Source of the DNA: Prevotella sp.
GTDB taxonomy: Bacteria; Bacteroidota; Bacteroidia; Bacteroidales; Bacteroidaceae
DNA: 44,552 nt
Direction: 5' to 3'
NCBI GenBank assembly: GCA_017847725.1
Contig: JAGAXW010000023.1
Location: 1-44,552 of the forward strand
Every line of letters begins with the position of its first letter. Position 1 is the stretch's first letter. Shown here piece by piece: positions 715 to 18,204 of the stretch. Made by a program: the position numbers and the translations under genes. The notes beneath the pieces are model-generated. The model was not told the origin of the DNA. It worked only from the letters and a program-made list of their open reading frames with translations, and did not search any database.

Positions 715-1227
715 ATGAGACACGGAAAGAAATTCAATCATCTGGGCCGTACTGCTGACCACCGCCGTGCCATGCTTGCCAACATGGCCATCTCGCTGAT
801 CATGCACAAAAGAATCACTACGACCCTCGCCAAGGCAAAGGCACTCAAGAAATATGTTGAGCCGCTCATCACGCGCTCTAAGGACGACAGCACCAACAGC
901 CGTCGTGTAGTCTTCAGCTACCTCCAGAACAAGGAGGCTCTGAAAGAGCTCTTCGGCCCGGTAGCCCAGAAGGTAGGCGACCGTCCTGGTGGCTATACCC
1001 GCATCATCAAGCTTGGCTTCCGTCAGGGCGATGCTGCAGAGAAGGCTTTCATCGAGCTCGTAGACTTCGACGAGAACATGCTCAAGACTCCGAAGGCTGA
1101 GGCCAAGAAGACTCGCCGTTCACGCAAGTCTGCCGCTAAGGCTGAAGCTCCCGCTGAGGAGGCTCCGAAGGCTGAGGAAGCTCCCGCTGCTGAGGCACCT
1201 GCTGCCGAGGAGGCAAAGGCTGAGTAA
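715..1227 (+). CDS. rplQ: 50S ribosomal protein L17
   Basis: L17 is a structural protein of the large ribosomal subunit. The N-terminal 120 residues match the family closely ([20 protein letters not shown], then the [19 protein letters not shown] helix). The protein is 170 residues, longer than the roughly 120-130 of many bacteria. The surplus is a low-complexity tail from about residue 125 rich in Ala, Glu and Lys with repeated EAP/AEE units; such extensions occur in Bacteroidota. It is cotranscribed with rpoA and closes the operon, since a strong hairpin follows its stop. Confidence 0.97.
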
Positions 1228-1250
1228 TATTTCAGAGAGATTCTATATAG

Positions 1251-1286
1251 AGTGGGGCGCTGTCATCTGGCTGTGCCCCACTTTTT
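1251..1286 (+). terminator. Rho-independent terminator of the rpoA-rplQ operon
   Basis: The arms AGTGGGGC (1251-1258) and GCCCCACT (1275-1282) form a perfect 8-bp stem followed directly by TTTT. It lies 24 bases after the rplQ stop and ends the ribosomal operon. Confidence 0.85.
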
Positions 1287-1318
1287 ATTAAGAGTATAGT
1301 ATATGATTCTTGAATAGG

Positions 1319-3043
1319 ATGCGGAAGATAATTGTATTCATTGCCTTTGTATTTACGTTAGCTTCATGCAGTTGGGACCATACGTTCCCCAAATTGTTAG
1401 TAGAGGCAGACAGTTTGCTAATGAGAGGAGCTTATATAGAAGCGGACAGCCTGTTGGCATTGTATGACAGCACTTCTACAGACAATAGTGAAGCATCGGC
1501 AAACTATCGCCAGTTGTTGCGTGTAGGAAGATTGTTTGTCGATGAGAATTTGTCAACGTCCGACTATTCTCTTGTTGATAGTTTGTGTCGTTATTATGAA
1601 TACAAAGGGTCACTTGACAAGTATGCAAAAGCTTTATGCTTTATGGGGGCAGTATATCAGGTAAGTGATGATTATCCATCGGCAATGGATTCCTATCTGA
1701 AAGCAAAAGATAAAGCAGAAAGTTGTGGAGACCGTTTTCTGATGTGCTGGATACTTCAATGTATTGGAAATTTGTATTTTGCTCAGCACATGTACGAGGA
1801 TTGTGTTGATTTCTATTATAAATATTATAATCTGTCCCAAAGTAATAATGATACACTAAGAATGGCTTTGTCTTCTTTTGATATGGCCAGAGTTTATACT
1901 ATTCAAAATAATGTGGATAGTATACTATTCTATTATAATAAATCCATAGATTTGGCGAAGCACACCCAGTGTCCAGAAAATATAATACCTGCGGCACAGA
2001 GAAATGTATGTGATATTTACATTCAAATAGGACAATATGAGAAAGCCCGTGAATATTTATCCAGCGATTCATTATGTGATGCCAACTGGGCTTATTGGTA
2101 TTTGGGCCAGAATCGAGTAGATTCTGCTGTCGTCTATTTTGAGAAAATACGGGATCGTTATGGAGTATATGGTCAAGAAGAAATATATAGGCATTTAGCT
2201 CAGTTAGAAGAGCGCCAATATAATGTGTTGAATTCATTGGCATATTATAAGAAACTACAGGCTGTGACAGATTCTATAAAGAGACTGTCACAAGTAGTCG
2301 AAACAAAGAAAATAAATGCACAATATAATTTTAGCAAGATAAAGAGAGAACGTGATAATATAGAAAAACATAGTAAGAATATTGAAGCACTTTTGTATAT
2401 TCTTTTCTTTCTTTTTGTTTTTCTTGTAATACTAGGAATATATATATGGAAGTATAATAAGCAAAAGCATAGTGCGGAGATTGCTCAGGAAAAGCTACTG
2501 CGTCATATTGAGGAAGAGAAATATAGCCAAAGTATTGTTCAAGTAGATAAGAATAAAAGGCGGATAGCCGAGTTGGAATCCTTACTGCGTGATGCGGATA
2601 AACGTAATGATACTAATGCAATAACCATGATAGAGTTGGATGCTGAACAATTGAGGACTGAAAACATGAAGATAGAAGCTTACCATCGTAAGCAGAAATA
2701 TCTGTTGAATGAGTTTACCAATACCTCCTTATATATGAGGATAAAGAAATATGCAGGTAATGATGGTTTCCATCTGACCGAAGAAGAATGGCAAGAAGTG
2801 GGAGAAGGTATTGATACTGTTTACGACAACTTTACTCAAAGATTATTTGCATTAGTTAGTTTGTCTGATGTAGAACTTAAAACATGCTATTTAATTAAGT
2901 TAAGAATATCACCAGCTGATATTGCAGTAATGTTGTTTAAAAGCAAAGCGGCAATCACTATGCTTCGACAGCGGCTATATGAGAAAATTACACATAAAAA
3001 GGGAACGGCCAAACAAATGGACGAGTTTGTGTTAAATTTCTGA
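1319..3043 (+). CDS. Membrane-anchored TPR protein with C-terminal helix-turn-helix-like domain
   Basis: The product is 574 residues from the ATG at 1319; an upstream in-frame TTG at 1310 is less likely. It begins with a lipoprotein-like signal (charged start, hydrophobic stretch, LASC lipobox near residue 17). TPR-like helical pairs follow to about residue 330 (for example MLCWILQCIGNLYFAQHMYE-type units). One transmembrane segment lies near residues 357-378 (LLYILFFLFVFLVILGIYIW) and a charged coiled coil follows. The last 60 residues look like a DNA-binding helix-turn-helix of the LuxR/SusR kind (LSDVELKTCYLIKLRISPAD). This layout is a common Bacteroidales sensor/regulator type: periplasmic TPR input, cytoplasmic HTH output. 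The ligand is unknown. The gene is visibly richer in A and T than rpoA and rplQ, which suggests transfer. It lies before a secreted barrel gene at 3184, a possible target. Confidence 0.72.
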   Translation: MRKIIVFIAFVFTLASCSWDHTFPKLLVEADSLLMRGAYIEADSLLALYDSTSTDNSEASANYRQLLRVGRLFVDENLSTSDYSLVDSLCRYYEYKGSLDKYAKALCFMGAVYQVSDDYPSAMDSYLKAKDKAESCGDRFLMCWILQCIGNLYFAQHMYEDCVDFYYKYYNLSQSNNDTLRMALSSFDMARVYTIQNNVDSILFYYNKSIDLAKHTQCPENIIPAAQRNVCDIYIQIGQYEKAREYLSSDSLCDANWAYWYLGQNRVDSAVVYFEKIRDRYGVYGQEEIYRHLAQLEERQYNVLNSLAYYKKLQAVTDSIKRLSQVVETKKINAQYNFSKIKRERDNIEKHSKNIEALLYILFFLFVFLVILGIYIWKYNKQKHSAEIAQEKLLRHIEEEKYSQSIVQVDKNKRRIAELESLLRDADKRNDTNAITMIELDAEQLRTENMKIEAYHRKQKYLLNEFTNTSLYMRIKKYAGNDGFHLTEEEWQEVGEGIDTVYDNFTQRLFALVSLSDVELKTCYLIKLRISPADIAVMLFKSKAAITMLRQRLYEKITHKKGTAKQMDEFVLNF

Positions 3044-3138
3044 TAACATTTGCTTCTTGACAGTTCACAGTCTGTTAATATATCCAAAGTGTAAACAAAT
3101 TGTGAATTCTGCTTGGATATCATTACTTCAGAAAGTCT

Positions 3139-13014: not shown

Positions 13015-13257
13015 ATGAGAAAAATTTTATTAGCATTTTGCTTATTTGCAGGAACACTGTCAGTCTTTGCGGAGAATGATGATGAGGAACAAGAGCAAGA
13101 TGGTTGCTGCTATGTTACAGAATGCGGAACCATGGGGACCACTGTTGGAGAGGAATTCTTTGACGGAGATGAAGAAGCTTTAATAGAGTATATGGCGGAA
13201 CTGGTAGAAGCAGAGTGTGGGGAACCTAATACCCATTTTAGTTTTTGGTGTCCCTAA
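13015..13257 (+). CDS. Small secreted, extremely acidic, cysteine-containing peptide
   Basis: The 80-residue product has a textbook signal peptide (MRKILLAFCLFAGTLSVFA, cleavage after residue 19), leaving a 61-residue mature form. The mature form has 19 Asp/Glu and no Lys or Arg. An acidic run follows the cleavage site (ENDDEEQEQDG). Then come five cysteines at residues 31, 32, 37, 68 and 79, with the last next to the C-terminus (FWCP). A short amphipathic helix is likely at EEALIEYMAELVEAE. It matches no family I can name; the NVEALA motif of other small Bacteroidales peptides is absent. It has its own promoter, and a hairpin between it and the GLPGLI gene suggests it is the most abundant product of the cassette. 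An exported bioactive or metal-binding peptide is one reading; unproven. Confidence 0.7.
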   Translation: MRKILLAFCLFAGTLSVFAENDDEEQEQDGCCYVTECGTMGTTVGEEFFDGDEEALIEYMAELVEAECGEPNTHFSFWCP

Positions 13258-13314: not shown

Positions 13315-13346
13315 AACATTATATAGGTCAATAAAGATATTTGATT

Positions 13347-14198
13347 ATGAATAAGAATACGATAATTTTGTTTTTGTGCCTATTGCCTGTCGTGTCGTTA
13401 GCCCAAAATATAACATACTTAGGCGGATCGTGTGATAACAACAGAATAAAGCTTTCTCCTCAAGAGAAAATCGACACCTGTCTGTTTGAATGTATCTATC
13501 TACACACGACGACAGATCCTAAACACAATGTCTTCCAGACAGAGCGATATGAAATTCTTCAAATTGGAGAAATGTTCTCAAAATACAGTGAGTATGGGAG
13601 ATACCGTTTAGATTCTGTATTGTCTTGCCGAGATATTTCTAAAATTCGGAAGGCAGAATATGCAGAGATGTACAGCAGATACAAGCCCAAGAGTGATCTC
13701 CTGATTCGCGAAATAGGCTCGGACAAGCTGGTCGCATACGACAGGGTTTTTATAGACAACTATACATATACGGATAGCCTGTATGATTTGAACTGGCAGT
13801 TGTCAGACGAAACGAAGACGGTGTGTGGACAGCAGTGTAGGAAAGCCACTTGTGATTTCAGAGGTCGCAAATGGTCGGCATGGTATTGTGATTTGCCAAT
13901 AGCCTGCGGCCCCTGGAAATTCTCAGGTCTGCCAGGGTTGATACTGGAAGTGGAAGACAGCACAAAAGAACATTTCATCTCTGCCATTTCTGTCAGGAAG
14001 GCACATTCGACGATTATGGAGACTAAGAAAAACTATTTGCGTACCACTCGCGAGAAGTTCAACCGCACCTTAGACTATTATATGAAGAACTCCGGCAAGG
14101 TGATTAGTGGAAGTGTGGCTGCTCCCAAGAACAGAGATGGAAGTCCTAAAAGACTTCCGAATCGTAAACGGTTCTTTAATCCGATGGAAAGAGAATAG
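13347..14198 (+). CDS. GLPGLI family secreted protein
   Basis: The protein has 283 residues from the ATG at 13347. A signal peptide is present (MNKNTIILFLCLLPVVSLAQ). The defining motif reads CGPWKFSGLPGLILEVED with GLPGLI at residues 194-199, and the C-terminus FFNPMERE is also typical of the family. The family (Porph_ging in Pfam) is restricted mainly to Bacteroidota and has no established biochemical role; members often lie beside TonB-receptor-like genes, as here. The ATG follows the peptide gene by 89 bases, with a hairpin between, and the barrel gene begins 6 bases after its stop, so the pair is cotranscribed. Base composition is AT-richer than the housekeeping genes. Confidence 0.9.
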   Translation: MNKNTIILFLCLLPVVSLAQNITYLGGSCDNNRIKLSPQEKIDTCLFECIYLHTTTDPKHNVFQTERYEILQIGEMFSKYSEYGRYRLDSVLSCRDISKIRKAEYAEMYSRYKPKSDLLIREIGSDKLVAYDRVFIDNYTYTDSLYDLNWQLSDETKTVCGQQCRKATCDFRGRKWSAWYCDLPIACGPWKFSGLPGLILEVEDSTKEHFISAISVRKAHSTIMETKKNYLRTTREKFNRTLDYYMKNSGKVISGSVAAPKNRDGSPKRLPNRKRFFNPMERE

Positions 14199-14204
14199 AT
14201 ACAG

Positions 14205-16802
14205 ATGAAATTGTTGTATACAATCCTTATTCCTTTTCTGGTTGCCATTCCCTGCCTGTCGCAGACAAATGTGAAAGGTATAGTCCGGGATGGTAATGGT
14301 AGGCCGATCAAGTCAGTTGTCGTCAAGCTATGTTCAGAGGGAGGGCATCTGCTGGCATACGGACTTACCAATCAGGAAGGAATATTCGATATATTGATTC
14401 CGTATACTTATTCTCTGCCAATACGCATCATGTCTTCACATGTAGGTTATAAGCAACAAACGTTATTGGTGAAGAACGCCAGTGAACGTCAGTATGTGGT
14501 AATGGAGCGTGGCAATACGGTGTTGCCCGAAGTTACCATCAAGGGCACACCAATCATGGCAATCGGGGATACCTTGCACTATCATGTGAGTCAATTCCGT
14601 AAATTCTCAGACCGGACCTTGGAAGACGTGCTCAGGCGTCTGCCTGGCATACATGTAGAGGAGTCAGGGCGTATCACCTATAGAGGGGAAGGTATCAGCA
14701 AGTTTTATATTGAAGGGCTCGACTTGTTGTCCGGTCAGTATGCCATCGCGACAAGAAACCTGAAAGTGGATGATATTGCAGCAGTCAGCGTTTATGAGAA
14801 CCATCAGCCGCAGCGCGTTTTAAGGGGCATCCAGTTTAGCGATAAAGCTGCTTTGAATATTAAGTTGAAGGAAGGCAGAAAGTTCCGCCCGTTTGGTTCT
14901 GTGACGTTAGGCTGTGGTGCCGGAAGTGAGGGACTGTGGATTGGTGAGGGCTTTGGAATGTATGCAGGCTCCAGGGGGCAGTCGCTGGTAACACTGAAGG
15001 GGAACAATACTGGAGGTTCGTATGGCGATGAGCACCGTTTCTTGGTCGAAACCGGCCTGCCGGCATCTTCACCTCTTTCTGATTTGTTTATCAAACAGCC
15101 TTTTAGCTCAAATAAACTGTCTTCAGATAGGTATAAGCAGAACACTTCGTTTGCGCTGTCTTACAATCATATCATGAAGATGAAAAAAGACGTCGTACTG
15201 TCCGTCAACACAAATTATGTGAGTGATGTTTTCGATTATTCAAGCGTAAAAAGAACCGTTTTCTTTGATGGCAGCAACCGTGCCGTTTCTGTGTCAAACA
15301 GCAACCACTCTGATATCCATGCTAAACAGGTGAAAACGAATTTCAAACTGGAGAGCAATAAAGAGAAGGTGTATTTGCTGGATAATTTAAGCTTGGCGGG
15401 GACGTTTACCAGTAATCATTATGCCATACATGAAGGTGTACGGTTGAGACAAGACATCGGCATCCGGGAATACCACGTAAAAAACAGCCTGAATACAACT
15501 GTCCGCCATCATAATAAGGTGTTTGTTTTTAGTTCGGACATCGCCCTTGCACATCTCCCGAAAAACCAGATTTCTGCTGCGGAAGAAGACAAGGATTCGC
15601 TTGTTGTCAGTCAAGAATTCAGGACGACAACTTTTCAGACAAGAGAAAAAACAGAGTTTACGTGGATGTTGGGGAATCACGCAGACTTGGCTTTAAAAGT
15701 GAATTTTGACTCATACTATGTTAAACTGAATGAGAACTTGATTAGAAACCAGTCGAATACTACAGACGCAGGTAACGGCTATAAATTGACAACAACATTT
15801 ATCCCCCAATTCCAGTATCATAGGAGTCGGTTGAGATTTAAGTTCGACCTACCCATATCGGTGTATAATCTAAAGGTGCAGAGTCGGACTTTAAATGAGG
15901 ACGGCAGGTTTGATAGAATAGGAGTCGGAGTGTCTATGTCGGCCCATTATTCGTTTAAGGCCAATACGAATCTGTCATTAACCGTGGGACGCCATTATTC
16001 GGTGGGCGATGTCTTAGACTATTTCGCCATCCCCGTGTACGAGACTTATCGTGATAGGAGCAATCTTGGTTATGGTCATTTGAAGGAGAGCCACACGACA
16101 AGTGCTACCGCAACCTTCAATTATAGGAACACCCTTTCAGGACTCTTTATGACCATACGAGGTACATGGATGATGGCCGACAGGAACACGATGAAGAGCA
16201 GCCTGGCAGATCGCGAAAAGACAATCTATAAAACAGAAGGTAGAAAAAACAGGAGCACCACATCGAACATGTATATATATGCGTCGAAAAATTTCTATGA
16301 GGCCGATTTGCAGTTGTCCATGATGGGAAATGCCACGTACGGTGAGCAGAAAATGGCCAGACAAGACAGGGAATACACGCTAAAGAGCCGTATGTTCGAC
16401 ATAGACTTGAGCATGAGGAAGGGTTGGCTGCACGGCATGATGTCAACTGACGTCACATATAAAATGATGTATAACAAGCGTCTTGTAGACACAGAGAGCC
16501 ACAGCAAACTGGTTGAGCATAAGCTTTACATCCATCTTACAGTAAATCCTATTGCCCAATTAGAATTGTTCGTAAAGAGCGGATACCATCATGGGAGCCT
16601 CCAGCAGAATGCTTATCACAGTCTTTTCCTGGACAGTGGAGTACGTTACAAGGCCAGGCGCATGGAATTAGAGCTCCAGTTGAAGAATCTGAATAACAGG
16701 CAGAGTTTCGAATATTGCAGGATTGATGGCTTTGATACTTACTCATATACATACCAGCTTCGGCCGATGGAGGGGGTGCTCCTACTAAAATATACGCTGT
16801 AA
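14205..16802 (+). CDS. TonB-dependent-receptor-like outer membrane protein with carboxypeptidase-regulatory-like N-domain
   Basis: The 865-residue product has a signal peptide (MKLLYTILIPFLVAIPCLSQ) and an N-terminal beta-sandwich of the CarboxypepD_reg type at residues 22-105 (VKGIVRDGNGRPIKSVVVKL, with LVKNASERQYVVMERG at the end). A plug-like region follows at about 110-225 (TLEDVLRRLPGIHVEESGRI, KFYIEGLDLLSGQY, VSVYENHQPQRVLRG). The remainder is a long beta barrel ending in GVLLLKYTL. I do not see a clear TonB box, so uptake by TonB is assumed from the family. Together with the GLPGLI protein it forms a typical Bacteroidota pair; in this case the acidic peptide is the probable third partner, as substrate or ligand. 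The inverted-repeat element starts 10 bases after its stop. Confidence 0.82.
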   Translation: MKLLYTILIPFLVAIPCLSQTNVKGIVRDGNGRPIKSVVVKLCSEGGHLLAYGLTNQEGIFDILIPYTYSLPIRIMSSHVGYKQQTLLVKNASERQYVVMERGNTVLPEVTIKGTPIMAIGDTLHYHVSQFRKFSDRTLEDVLRRLPGIHVEESGRITYRGEGISKFYIEGLDLLSGQYAIATRNLKVDDIAAVSVYENHQPQRVLRGIQFSDKAALNIKLKEGRKFRPFGSVTLGCGAGSEGLWIGEGFGMYAGSRGQSLVTLKGNNTGGSYGDEHRFLVETGLPASSPLSDLFIKQPFSSNKLSSDRYKQNTSFALSYNHIMKMKKDVVLSVNTNYVSDVFDYSSVKRTVFFDGSNRAVSVSNSNHSDIHAKQVKTNFKLESNKEKVYLLDNLSLAGTFTSNHYAIHEGVRLRQDIGIREYHVKNSLNTTVRHHNKVFVFSSDIALAHLPKNQISAAEEDKDSLVVSQEFRTTTFQTREKTEFTWMLGNHADLALKVNFDSYYVKLNENLIRNQSNTTDAGNGYKLTTTFIPQFQYHRSRLRFKFDLPISVYNLKVQSRTLNEDGRFDRIGVGVSMSAHYSFKANTNLSLTVGRHYSVGDVLDYFAIPVYETYRDRSNLGYGHLKESHTTSATATFNYRNTLSGLFMTIRGTWMMADRNTMKSSLADREKTIYKTEGRKNRSTTSNMYIYASKNFYEADLQLSMMGNATYGEQKMARQDREYTLKSRMFDIDLSMRKGWLHGMMSTDVTYKMMYNKRLVDTESHSKLVEHKLYIHLTVNPIAQLELFVKSGYHHGSLQQNAYHSLFLDSGVRYKARRMELELQLKNLNNRQSFEYCRIDGFDTYSYTYQLRPMEGVLLLKYTL

Positions 16803-16812
16803 CTTCGCTTTT

Positions 16813-17200
16813 CGATTTTTTTCCTTCACCTTCACCCGATTGTCCGAAAGCCCTTTGTATAAAGGAGGTTTGCGCAGGCGGGGACGCCGCGTGATCCGTT
16901 TTCTCCGTCACCTTTCCTTCACCCCCGTCAGCACTTGGCGATGGAAAAACGGTGAGCGTTTTTCTGGAAACGGTGAGCGTTCTGCCATAAACGGTGAGCG
17001 TTTTCAGAAATTGCTGCTTGTCTTGGCGACAGCGCCGACTGTCCTGCGCGCCAGTGCATGCGTGCGCGAGGCGCCTTGGTGCGGGACGGGTGAAGGAAGG
17101 GTGAAGGCCGCCGGCCCCCTCGCGCGCACGGCCACACCCCCGCGAGGCCCGTGTACAAAGGGCTTTCGGACAATCGGGTGAAGGTGAAGGAAAAAAATCG
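16813..17200. mobile_element. 388-bp element bounded by perfect 47-bp inverted repeats (MITE-like or giant hairpin)
   Basis: Bases 16813-16859 are the exact reverse complement of 17154-17200 (47 of 47). Just inside lies a second, imperfect inverted pair (around 16904-16928 and 17087-17106, core GGTGAAGGAA). The middle holds three 21-bp direct repeats. The element fills the space between two convergent genes, ending 10 and 17 bases from their stops. No real gene is present: the frames that cross it have repeat-driven, low-complexity products. No clean target-site duplication was found. It may be a non-autonomous transposable element, or a structured bidirectional terminator or RNA. Confidence 0.75.
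16947..17009. repeat. Three direct repeats at exact 21-bp period
   Basis: AACGGTGAGCGTT occurs at 16948-16960, 16969-16981 and 16990-17002. Each unit is 14 conserved bases (AAACGGTGAGCGTT) plus 7 variable bases. The core is partly palindromic (AACG...CGTT). Two-helical-turn spacing is what an array of protein-binding sites would show. Three units are too few and too close for CRISPR. Confidence 0.85.
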
Positions 17201-17217
17201 ATTTCGGAATATGGGCG

Positions 17218-18204
17218 CTACTGCCCGCCGAGGCGTGAGAAGTATTCGCCGATGTCCTCCCACGTCTTGAATGTGTCGGAGCTGTAGTCGAGCAGGGTGG
17301 CCATGGGGTCGCCCTCCGCTCCCTGGCTTATCAGGTAGTCGCCGTAGAGCAGGTCGCGGCGGTGGGTATAGACGGTATGGTGCCAGGCGGGCACGTTGAT
17401 GTAGTCTTCGAGCCAGGCGGCTGTCGCGGCGAGGCTGTCTGTGCCGTCGACGAAGTAGACCTGATAGTGCTCGATGAGCTGGCGGACGGTCTTCTGTACG
17501 GACGAGGCGGGCTTCCGGAAGGAGTCCATCATGGTCTCCACTCCTATATATATGATGGGGCGCTCACGGTGTTCCTGGCGGTCGTCGATCCAGCGGATGA
17601 CGGGCACCACGCTGTGCATAAACGACTTGTCGTTCATGCGGTGCTCGCCGTGGAAGTGGATGGCCTGGGGGTAGACGGCGCGGAAGAGGTCGTAGGTGTC
17701 GACGGTGGTGTCCTCGTCGCCGAAGAGTCCGATGACGCGCTGGCGCTCCTGGTCGTCGGCCCCTTCGAAGCGGTGCTCTGACACCTCCTTATACTCCTTG
17801 ACGAGCGCCTTGTCGACGTAGAACTCCTGTATGCCGTCGCGGCGCGGGTTCTGGAACTGCTGGGTGCCCGTCATGCCGTGGGCTTTCATGGTCTCGCCCA
17901 TCTCCATGGCGGGGTTGACGCAGATGCGGTCGTAGCCGTAGAGCTGTTCGGCATACATGCCGCCCATCGATGTGCCGATGATGAGGTGGGGCTGTTCGTC
18001 CCTGCAGATGCAGTGGAGCAGGTCGATGGCCTCTTGCGGGTGGACGGGCAGGTCGGGTGCTACGATTCTGGCCTGCGGCATGACGGTGCGCAGGCGTTCC
18101 ACGGTGCCCGACTGGCCGCTTGAGGCGAAGCCGTGACAGTAGAGTACGGTTTTGCCGGCCATCATGTCGGGGAATTGCTTGACGTAGGGATTTTCTGTTA
18201 CCAT
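17218..18204 (-). CDS. YqiA/YcfP-like alpha/beta hydrolase fused to a degenerate 5'-nucleotidase-like domain
   Basis: The 328-residue protein has two parts. Residues 15-215 are a YqiA-type esterase fold: LYCHGFASSGQSG, the nucleophile elbow GTSMGG near residues 78-83, a probable acid in GLFGDEDTTVD and a histidine in FHGEHRMND. Residues 220-315 resemble the NT5C 5'(3')-deoxyribonucleotidase fold (RPIIYIGVETMMDSF, AAWLEDYINVPAWHHTVYTH, RRDLLYGDYLIS). However, the Asp nucleophile pair of that family is absent where IGVET stands, so this half is probably non-catalytic. The -7 box lies 4 bases before the ATG at 18204, so the mRNA would be leaderless, or the true start is Met14/15. The substrate is unknown. 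Confidence 0.8.
   Translation of the reverse strand: MVTENPYVKQFPDMMAGKTVLYCHGFASSGQSGTVERLRTVMPQARIVAPDLPVHPQEAIDLLHCICRDEQPHLIIGTSMGGMYAEQLYGYDRICVNPAMEMGETMKAHGMTGTQQFQNPRRDGIQEFYVDKALVKEYKEVSEHRFEGADDQERQRVIGLFGDEDTTVDTYDLFRAVYPQAIHFHGEHRMNDKSFMHSVVPVIRWIDDRQEHRERPIIYIGVETMMDSFRKPASSVQKTVRQLIEHYQVYFVDGTDSLAATAAWLEDYINVPAWHHTVYTHRRDLLYGDYLISQGAEGDPMATLLDYSSDTFKTWEDIGEYFSRLGGQ

Follow-up and report, generated by a model that had tools for sequence, protein, structure and literature searches.

A gene-less inverted-repeat element between two convergent Prevotella genes and its probable place in a family of VapE-carrying mobile elements

Results

The locus and its neighbours

The window, by which we mean the whole stretch of 44,552 nucleotides analyzed here, contains a gene-less element that lies between two convergent genes and is built of an arm, an array and an inverted second arm. 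Its features are as follows.

16812..17201, no strand: whole gene-less element (arm, array, arm), from the inverted-repeat search and copies elsewhere
16812..16859, + strand: left outer arm, perfect inverted repeat of 17154-17201, from the inverted-repeat search
17154..17201, - strand: right outer arm, from the inverted-repeat search
16823..16835, + strand: outer iteron-like pair of the left arm (CCTTCACCTTCAC), putative role
17178..17190, - strand: outer iteron-like pair of the right arm, putative role
16852..16865, no strand: palindromic block of the left arm, CCTTTGTATAAAGG, from arm comparison
17148..17162, no strand: corresponding block of the right arm (CCCGTGTACAAAGGG), from arm comparison
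16905..16922, + strand: inner iteron-like repeats of the left arm, CCGTCAC and CCTTCAC, 11 bp apart
17090..17107, - strand: inner iteron-like repeats of the right arm, 11 bp apart
16947..17009, + strand: three-unit 21-bp array with a AAACGGTGAGCGTT core, from the repeat search; its counterpart in locus L183 lies just before the VapE gene
14205..16802, + strand: left neighbour gene, 865 aa, CarboxypepD_reg below cut-off, outside the element
17218..18204, - strand: right neighbour gene, 328 aa, UPF0227, outside the element

The outer arms are 48 nt each and 100% complementary. A previous sequence-only reading of this DNA had described them as perfect over 47 bp; the perfection stands, while the true length is one base more on each side. 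The near-identical inner pair that it reported was found at 16905-16924/17088-17107 (20 nt, 90% complementary), as were the three core repeats at a 21-bp period, which are 21-nt direct copies at 16947, 16968 and 16989, each beginning with AAACGGTGAGCGTT. The tight fit between the convergent genes was likewise borne out, with 9 spare bases on the left and 16 on the right. A 48-bp repeat lies well outside chance expectation here, as no other exact inverted repeat spaced within 2 kb anywhere in the 44.5-kb window exceeds 16 bp. The element is overlapped by three ORFs of 111-120 aa, none of which gave a Pfam match. The element thus shows the traits of a miniature inverted-repeat transposable element (MITE), being short, without a protein gene, bounded by terminal inverted repeats and present in several copies.

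The left neighbour gene is preceded by a gene for a GLPGLI-family protein (13341-14198; TIGR01200, E 5e-47) and this, in turn, by an 80-aa ORF (13015-13257) that begins like a signal peptide, includes a CCYVTECGT stretch and has no family match. A second copy of the right-hand gene, 79% identical, is found elsewhere in the window genome (G000:C44:12810-13487), with no element match beside it.

Folded as RNA, the element reaches -232.8 kcal/mol (z -15.95), and we take the strength of this fold to be mostly due to the perfect arms. Such a fold, together with the perfect arms and the short distance from stop codons at this site and in some other copies, would suit a site that serves the host, namely a terminator, a structured RNA or a regulator array selected at gene ends. 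We give this explanation a very small probability, as it is opposed by several results. A GC stem followed by a T run was not found in the element, and it was therefore rejected as an intrinsic terminator; it also gave no match to an Rfam covariance model up to E 1 and was rejected as a known RNA of that collection. No consensus RNA fold emerged from 58 arms of the family, and in the full elements described below the arms lie about 1.3-2.3 kb apart. The gene context of 59 elements was tandem in 25, convergent in 15, divergent in 14 and undetermined in 5, with no excess of convergent sites. Nor is the place conserved, as the element was matched in 0/59 other genomes. The bidirectional terminator and the structured RNA that the sequence-only reading had offered were thus both abandoned.

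Gene-less copies in the same genome and elsewhere

Diverged relatives of the element occur at contigs C36, C17 and C3 of the window genome (2.39 Mb in 56 contigs, 80.6% complete). To describe them we refer to R1, an arm-only profile made from 58 arms, including the two arms of the window and one each of loci L183 and L186. In this genome R1 matched seven arms at E<=1.7e-5, namely the window pair, the C36 pair, the C17 pair and a half element at C3, while an eighth match (E 0.02) was left uncounted. The window arms themselves scored E 7.2e-15 and 1.4e-14 in their own genome, and it should be noted that both belong to the training arms of R1. At C17 and C36 the array is not enclosed by the arms but lies beyond them, and further arrays, at C24 and C49, have no arm matched by R1. 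Array units in this genome occur in both orientations, at 21-bp spacing.

Searching other genomes for the arm and the unit, as had been proposed, yielded relatives in rumen Prevotella MAGs. The arms and core are not unique to the window, as the sequence-only reading had allowed that they might be, with copies present in its own genome and in others. The two-unit 21-bp pattern was found in 5/299 genomes of the genus, one of which (G283) is probably a simple repeat, and in five named MAG records, with 18 stretches in all: CAMJZV (7), JAFUDJ (6), CACWFV (3) and CADCAG (1), which are Prevotella, Prevotellaceae or Bacteroidales MAGs, and CADBNB (1), binned as Lachnospiraceae. The last of these is a short contig (CADBNB010000378.1, locus L040) that carries an element of the family and is probably a binning error. 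Many copies are also found in genome G242. Most copies have in common an arm measuring about 115 bp, together with a core whose arrays include several unit types. As most of the gene-less copies were retrieved with the 21-bp pattern itself, their 21-bp period is partly selected.

In the CAMJZV genome, two copies (L039 and L049) agree at 99.6% of positions across 562 bp and three others (L042, L043 and L044) at 97.5-98.1% across 395-420 bp, with unrelated flanks in both cases among the matches listed; L043 and L044 have about 25 bp extra in common on the left. Near-identical copies at unrelated sites mean that the family disperses, whatever the mechanism. Dispersal of the gene-less copies is therefore an observation, and one that agrees with the non-autonomous transposable element that the sequence-only reading had considered, as do the gene-carrying full versions. 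Its expected partner did not follow: the partner gene encodes no transposase, and no target duplication was seen.

Full elements carrying VapE

R1 matched 29/200 genomes of the genus at E<=1e-4 (10/86 good-quality genomes). In five of these (G114, G069, G177, G212 and G221) arm pairs 1.4-1.8 kb apart enclose a gene for a VapE-type ATPase, which in L140-L143 encodes 403-424 aa (PF05272, E 3e-30 to 2e-37) and in the G221 pair (L144) is internally deleted and accompanied by a DUF6078 gene. Another pair, 3.4 kb apart (L145), probably represents two separate elements; between its arms lie a gene for an AraC-type regulator and two ORFs that matched no transposase.

We then considered a clade of short VapE proteins, defined among the loci fetched by at least 49% identity to L140. 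In a test independent of R1, inverted repeats flanked all 19 intact testable loci, at E<1e-6 in 18 of them and at 2.5e-6 in L153; four of the 19 (L152, L154, L165 and L174) had first been met through R1. These repeats measure 41-135 bp and are at least 74 bp long in 17/19 loci. Two broken VapE genes (L167 and L176) showed no flanking inverted repeats, and L161 was unsuited to the test. As controls, 0/133 other genes of genome G324 had such repeats, and neither did any of the 77 testable VapE-like loci from viral collections. In the viral control, 80 of the 109 profile-matched loci were kept and the longest ORF near the middle of the locus was taken, so that some of these ORFs may not be the VapE gene.

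Long proteins of 687-726 aa, which combine BT4734-like_N and VapE domains, also lie between arms (L182, L183, L186, L190, L194 and L199), with one weak arm in L186. Full elements are 1470-2500 bp long with arms of about 75-135 bp. All 25 full-element proteins matched PF05272 and, in Pfam, none matched a transposase family at E<=0.01; their content is VapE, DUF5906, mostly DUF3874 and, in the long forms, BT4734-like_N. Outside the VapE gene, 23/25 full elements have no second ORF of at least 100 aa, and in the other two (L158 and L172) the second ORF is a DUF6078 gene; the Pfam scan covered ORFs longer than 74 aa. The full elements thus have neither the transposase gene of an insertion sequence nor the integrase and phage-packaging genes of SaPI/PICI islands.

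DUF6078 occurs in three VapE elements in all (L144:2305-2766, L158:1044-1490 and L172:634-1092), one of them with the deleted VapE gene, and in a Parabacteroides distasonis record a DUF6078 gene lies right before a BT4734/BF3469 gene (L234:956-1396). It is possible that this gene is cargo or a partner gene.

The arms are not a property of all VapE genes. A clade of 13 distinct long VapE proteins showed no such repeats (two, at contig ends, were untestable), and among plasmid and phage records 2/7 had arms, namely Bacteroides finegoldii L235 (61 bp) and the human faecal phage contig L240 (107 bp). An order-wide search at the strict E<=1e-60 matched 0/295, a negative that carries little weight; the same query matched 19/19 chosen genomes of the genus at 1e-10. 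In the window genome, at 80.6% completeness, no full element with matching arms was seen, and its sole VapE match, at C28 (32% identity), is not flanked by arms. When one genome contains several full elements, these are 78-91% alike, hence old, and movement is not evident from them. It should also be considered that the data are mostly MAGs.

The nearest full relative of the window element is L183, which comprises an arm (679-791), a three-unit 21-bp array (units at 843, 864 and 885), a BT4734/VapE gene (967-3030) and a second arm (3019-3110). Its array reads AAACGGTGAGCGTT, AAACGGTGAGCGAT, AAACGGTGAGCGTT at 21 bp and is window-like, in the same orientation. The order in L183 is arm, a stretch starting GTGGAAAAACGGTGAGCGTTTTGCC, three units, gene and arm, and in the window arm, a stretch starting GATGGAAAAACGGTGAGCGTTTTTC, three units, a GC-rich stretch and arm. 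As the two orders match apart from the gene, the window element has the plan of L183 without its gene, and it is most likely a non-autonomous member of the VapE inverted-repeat element family.

Another explanation of arms without genes is that these copies are origin decoys or satellites, which titrate or parasitise the initiator of phages or of VapE elements. The gene-less copies do have origin-like arms, a VapE relative is encoded in 109 viral stretches (profile search) and the faecal phage contig L240 does carry such arms. Nonetheless, no contig of the viral collections showed the 21-bp array pattern, single-protein queries also matched none, and arms were absent from the viral VapE-like loci of the control above. 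We regard a decoy or satellite as extremely unlikely.

Arm repeats and the core array

In the arm of a full element, outer repeats mostly 7-8 bp apart are followed by a conserved TGTACAAAGGG-like block and by inner repeats mostly 11 bp apart. Over 23 elements and 46 arms, the window included, the outer spacing is 7-8 bp in 33/44 cases and the inner spacing is 11 bp in 42/78; as the repeat word was chosen by a script with one mismatch allowed, a part of these positions is noise. Outer and inner repeats are separated by 65-67 bp in 26/46 arms and by 45 bp in 5/6 arms of L190, L194 and L199, while the window, at 76/77 bp, is unlike the 65-67 bp group. The block between the two sets is close to GCCGATGTACAAAGGGG, and its 17-mer scored a median of 13/17 in 48 arms against 8 in shuffled sequence, although some arms scored 9 or less and the consensus was drawn from the same arms on which it was scored.

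The repeat sequence itself varies by element (CCCTCAC, CTCTTCA, CCTAACA, TTCCCCA, GAGACTG and others), and its similarity tracks the identity of the VapE protein, with a Mantel r of 0.44 (p 0.0005) over 22 elements and of 0.28 (p 0.002) over the 19 elements of the short clade. Likeness between arms was 0.83 for an arm's own partner versus 0.72 for other elements, the own partner being the nearest for 26/78 arms. In the pairs L163/L173, L157/L172 and L160/L175, with genes 91, 87 and 78% identical, arms agree better within than between elements; this excess is absent in L194/L199, which have a common site, and in L190/L194 the two values are about equal. The perfect 48 bp of the window is the extreme of this within-element likeness.

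As for the core array, the best period is 20-22 bp in 18/18 gene-less cores, partly by selection, upstream of 6/14 arm-bearing genes (it is absent in 8/14), in 3/5 upstream regions of arm-less Prevotella relatives and in 5/6 of plasmid and phage records, the sixth having 25 bp. The period test was based on single-base shuffles. Dyad symmetry of the units was found at p<=0.05 in 13 of 17 testable arrays (19 in all), and since most arrays have one unit type in common, these p values are not independent. Among arrays of other unit types or without the 13-mer (L055, L163, L150, L234, L237, L240, L187 and L196), 5/8 passed. The binding array suggested in the sequence-only reading is thus plausible with regard to the dyad units, the two-turn period and the 20-22-bp arrays upstream of related VapE genes, though these arrays accompany only some of the genes. 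The 21-bp dyad array is most likely an operator or an accessory origin site.

Arrays with a 22-bp period also lie upstream of BT4734/VapE genes in Parabacteroides (L234:1397-1580), Bacteroides (L237:2070-2395) and the human faecal phage contig (L240:2032-2700), with sequences unrelated to that of the window.

Arrays and arms of this kind may also recall REP/BIME-like palindromes, in which units and arms would be substrates of a RAYT-type enzyme and VapE genes merely common beside them. The mosaic make-up, the mixed-orientation units at fixed spacing, the arrays at C24 and C49 without an R1-matched arm and the lack of target duplication all fit such palindromes. The enclosure of VapE by inverted repeats in 18/19 short-clade loci does not, and neither do the lengths (about 390-560 bp and 1.5-2.5 kb) and the unit geometry, which are unlike those of REPs. 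We therefore consider this explanation highly unlikely.

Insertion sites

No target duplication was seen in the 26 elements inspected, whose exact borders are uncertain by a few bases. In a numerical test of 39 elements, the two flanks of an element shared 5.13 bases versus 4.61 for cross comparisons, with no fixed positions. The search for empty sites, proposed with the original observation as a check for target duplications, yielded none for the window: its flanks matched 218/299 genomes, by the right-hand gene only among the matches listed, and none of the listed matches of that gene reached into the element. The flanks of 16 loci from G242 were compared with 400 kb of G324 and with other loci of this analysis, and here too an empty site was absent. 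The one good match, at 96.6%, came from the left flank of L052/L088, two loci at the same place, and lay next to the L053 element; that of L190 hit L194, which is also occupied, and L214; and three right flanks hit L208, adjoining another arm pair.

These data bear on the classical MITE, in which an undetected DDE or other host transposase would recognise the arms and the VapE elements would be passengers. The gene-less copies are short, end in inverted repeats and number several per genome, as one would expect of a MITE, and 0/59 elements lie inside a foreign ORF of at least 90 aa (in 8/59 such an ORF overlaps one end). To our knowledge, moreover, transposition chemistry is not expected of VapE itself. 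The missing target duplication, the five opened arm pairs of 1.4-1.8 kb that enclose VapE genes and the multiple spaced repeats in the arms, whose sequence tracks the VapE protein, nonetheless argue against it, and we consider a classical MITE unlikely. The narrower version, a MITE with a transposase-encoding partner, was rejected, as the arms pair around VapE genes and a transposase family is found in 0/25 of the proteins.

Discussion

The full elements of this family consist of a gene for a VapE-type AAA+ ATPase, with or without an N-terminal BT4734 (primase-like) domain, between inverted arms. We find it probable that the window element is a gene-less, non-autonomous member of this chromosomal VapE mobile-element family of Prevotella. 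Evidence that counts against this view is that the window genome showed no matching full element, that empty sites were not found, that many related VapE genes have no arms, that the upstream array is missing in 8/14 arm-bearing loci, that the outer-inner gap of the window departs from the usual value and that the full elements give no sign of recent movement. By analogy with SaPI Rep, VapE may act as a self-loading replication initiator helicase that would bind the iteron-like repeats of each arm, with the arms serving as origins, and would open the conserved TGTACAAAGGG-like block and drive copying of the element. A VapE with specificity for the repeats of a gene-less copy could then act on that copy in trans. 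A stronger proposal, that the elements are bounded by two inverted origins and spread by a self-loading replicative helicase, mostly the sole gene product, without a transposase, nuclease or integrase of their own, with arms kept alike through copying and gene-less copies carried in trans, is possible, and we advance it tentatively.

The VapE profile had one significant relative among solved structures, 7pds ('Similar to D. nodosus vapE', E 5e-22), which we take to be a SaPI protein. The short VapE forms are without the primase-like domain, and in the arm-bearing long forms acidic motif I of the primase, as given in PMC5862659, is not evident by inspection. Helicase activity and origin recognition therefore seem to be the functions that are kept.

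No description of such elements was found in the open-licence PMC literature, and several known systems should be compared. SaPI Rep helicases recognise iterons beside their own gene (PMC7581432), and the likeness of SaPI Rep and SCCmec Cch2 to the proteins considered here would lie in a self-loading helicase whose cognate short repeats adjoin its gene. According to the same source, their origin occurs once, on the downstream side of the gene, and the islands contain further genes, whereas here an origin-like block is inverted at both ends and forms the border of the element. The proteins of the full elements belong to the family of BT4734-like archaeo-eukaryotic primases with VirE ATPases (PMC5862659), in the main text of which the term 'inverted repeat' does not occur; the short proteins here differ in lacking the primase domain.

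Two described repeats were rejected as this family on the basis of their published descriptions. BrickBuilt is a MITE of Porphyromonas gingivalis with 23-nt core repeats and 12-nt IS5-family-like ends (PMC4596501). It resembles the present elements as an intergenic Bacteroidales element with inverted ends, core repeats of about two turns (23 nt, versus 21 nt here) and no protein gene. Here, however, the arms are about 115 bp long, with spaced repeats common to VapE elements, and the core is made of short dyad units, whose orientation is mixed in other copies; in a comparison of printed ends, those of BrickBuilt (GAGACCTTTGCA, PMC4596501) do not resemble our arms. PINSR, a 188-bp repeat of Prevotella intermedia/nigrescens whose mechanism is given as unknown (PMC4755523), is likewise an intergenic repeat of the Prevotella lineage, but as described there it has no terminal inverted repeats.

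If the proposed explanation is true, some of the gut-Bacteroidales genes annotated as 'BT4734/BF3469 family' or 'VapE domain' belong to mobile elements with definable ends, and DNA is able to disperse while encoding mainly or solely a replicative helicase. The 22 elements form a natural series of initiators and iterons; as they largely keep the spacing while the repeat sequence changes, a VapE recognition code becomes testable. For annotation, scattered intergenic palindromes of rumen Prevotella become a family with borders.

With regard to these borders, a sequence near GGGACTGACACCTGATCTG adjoins the arm at several loci of more than one genome, in the left flanks of L043 and L044 and in the right flanks of L024/L101 and L040; it may belong to a longer end or represent a REP-like target that is preferred. 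In two loci the first element is closely followed by another arm pair, which is shorter (L042:1370-1581 and L089:2056-2267). A GCGC-rich block near GGTTCGCGCGTGCGCACGC recurs in many copies from several genomes, just outside one arm in L039, L045, L054, L087, L090, L091, L099 and L147.
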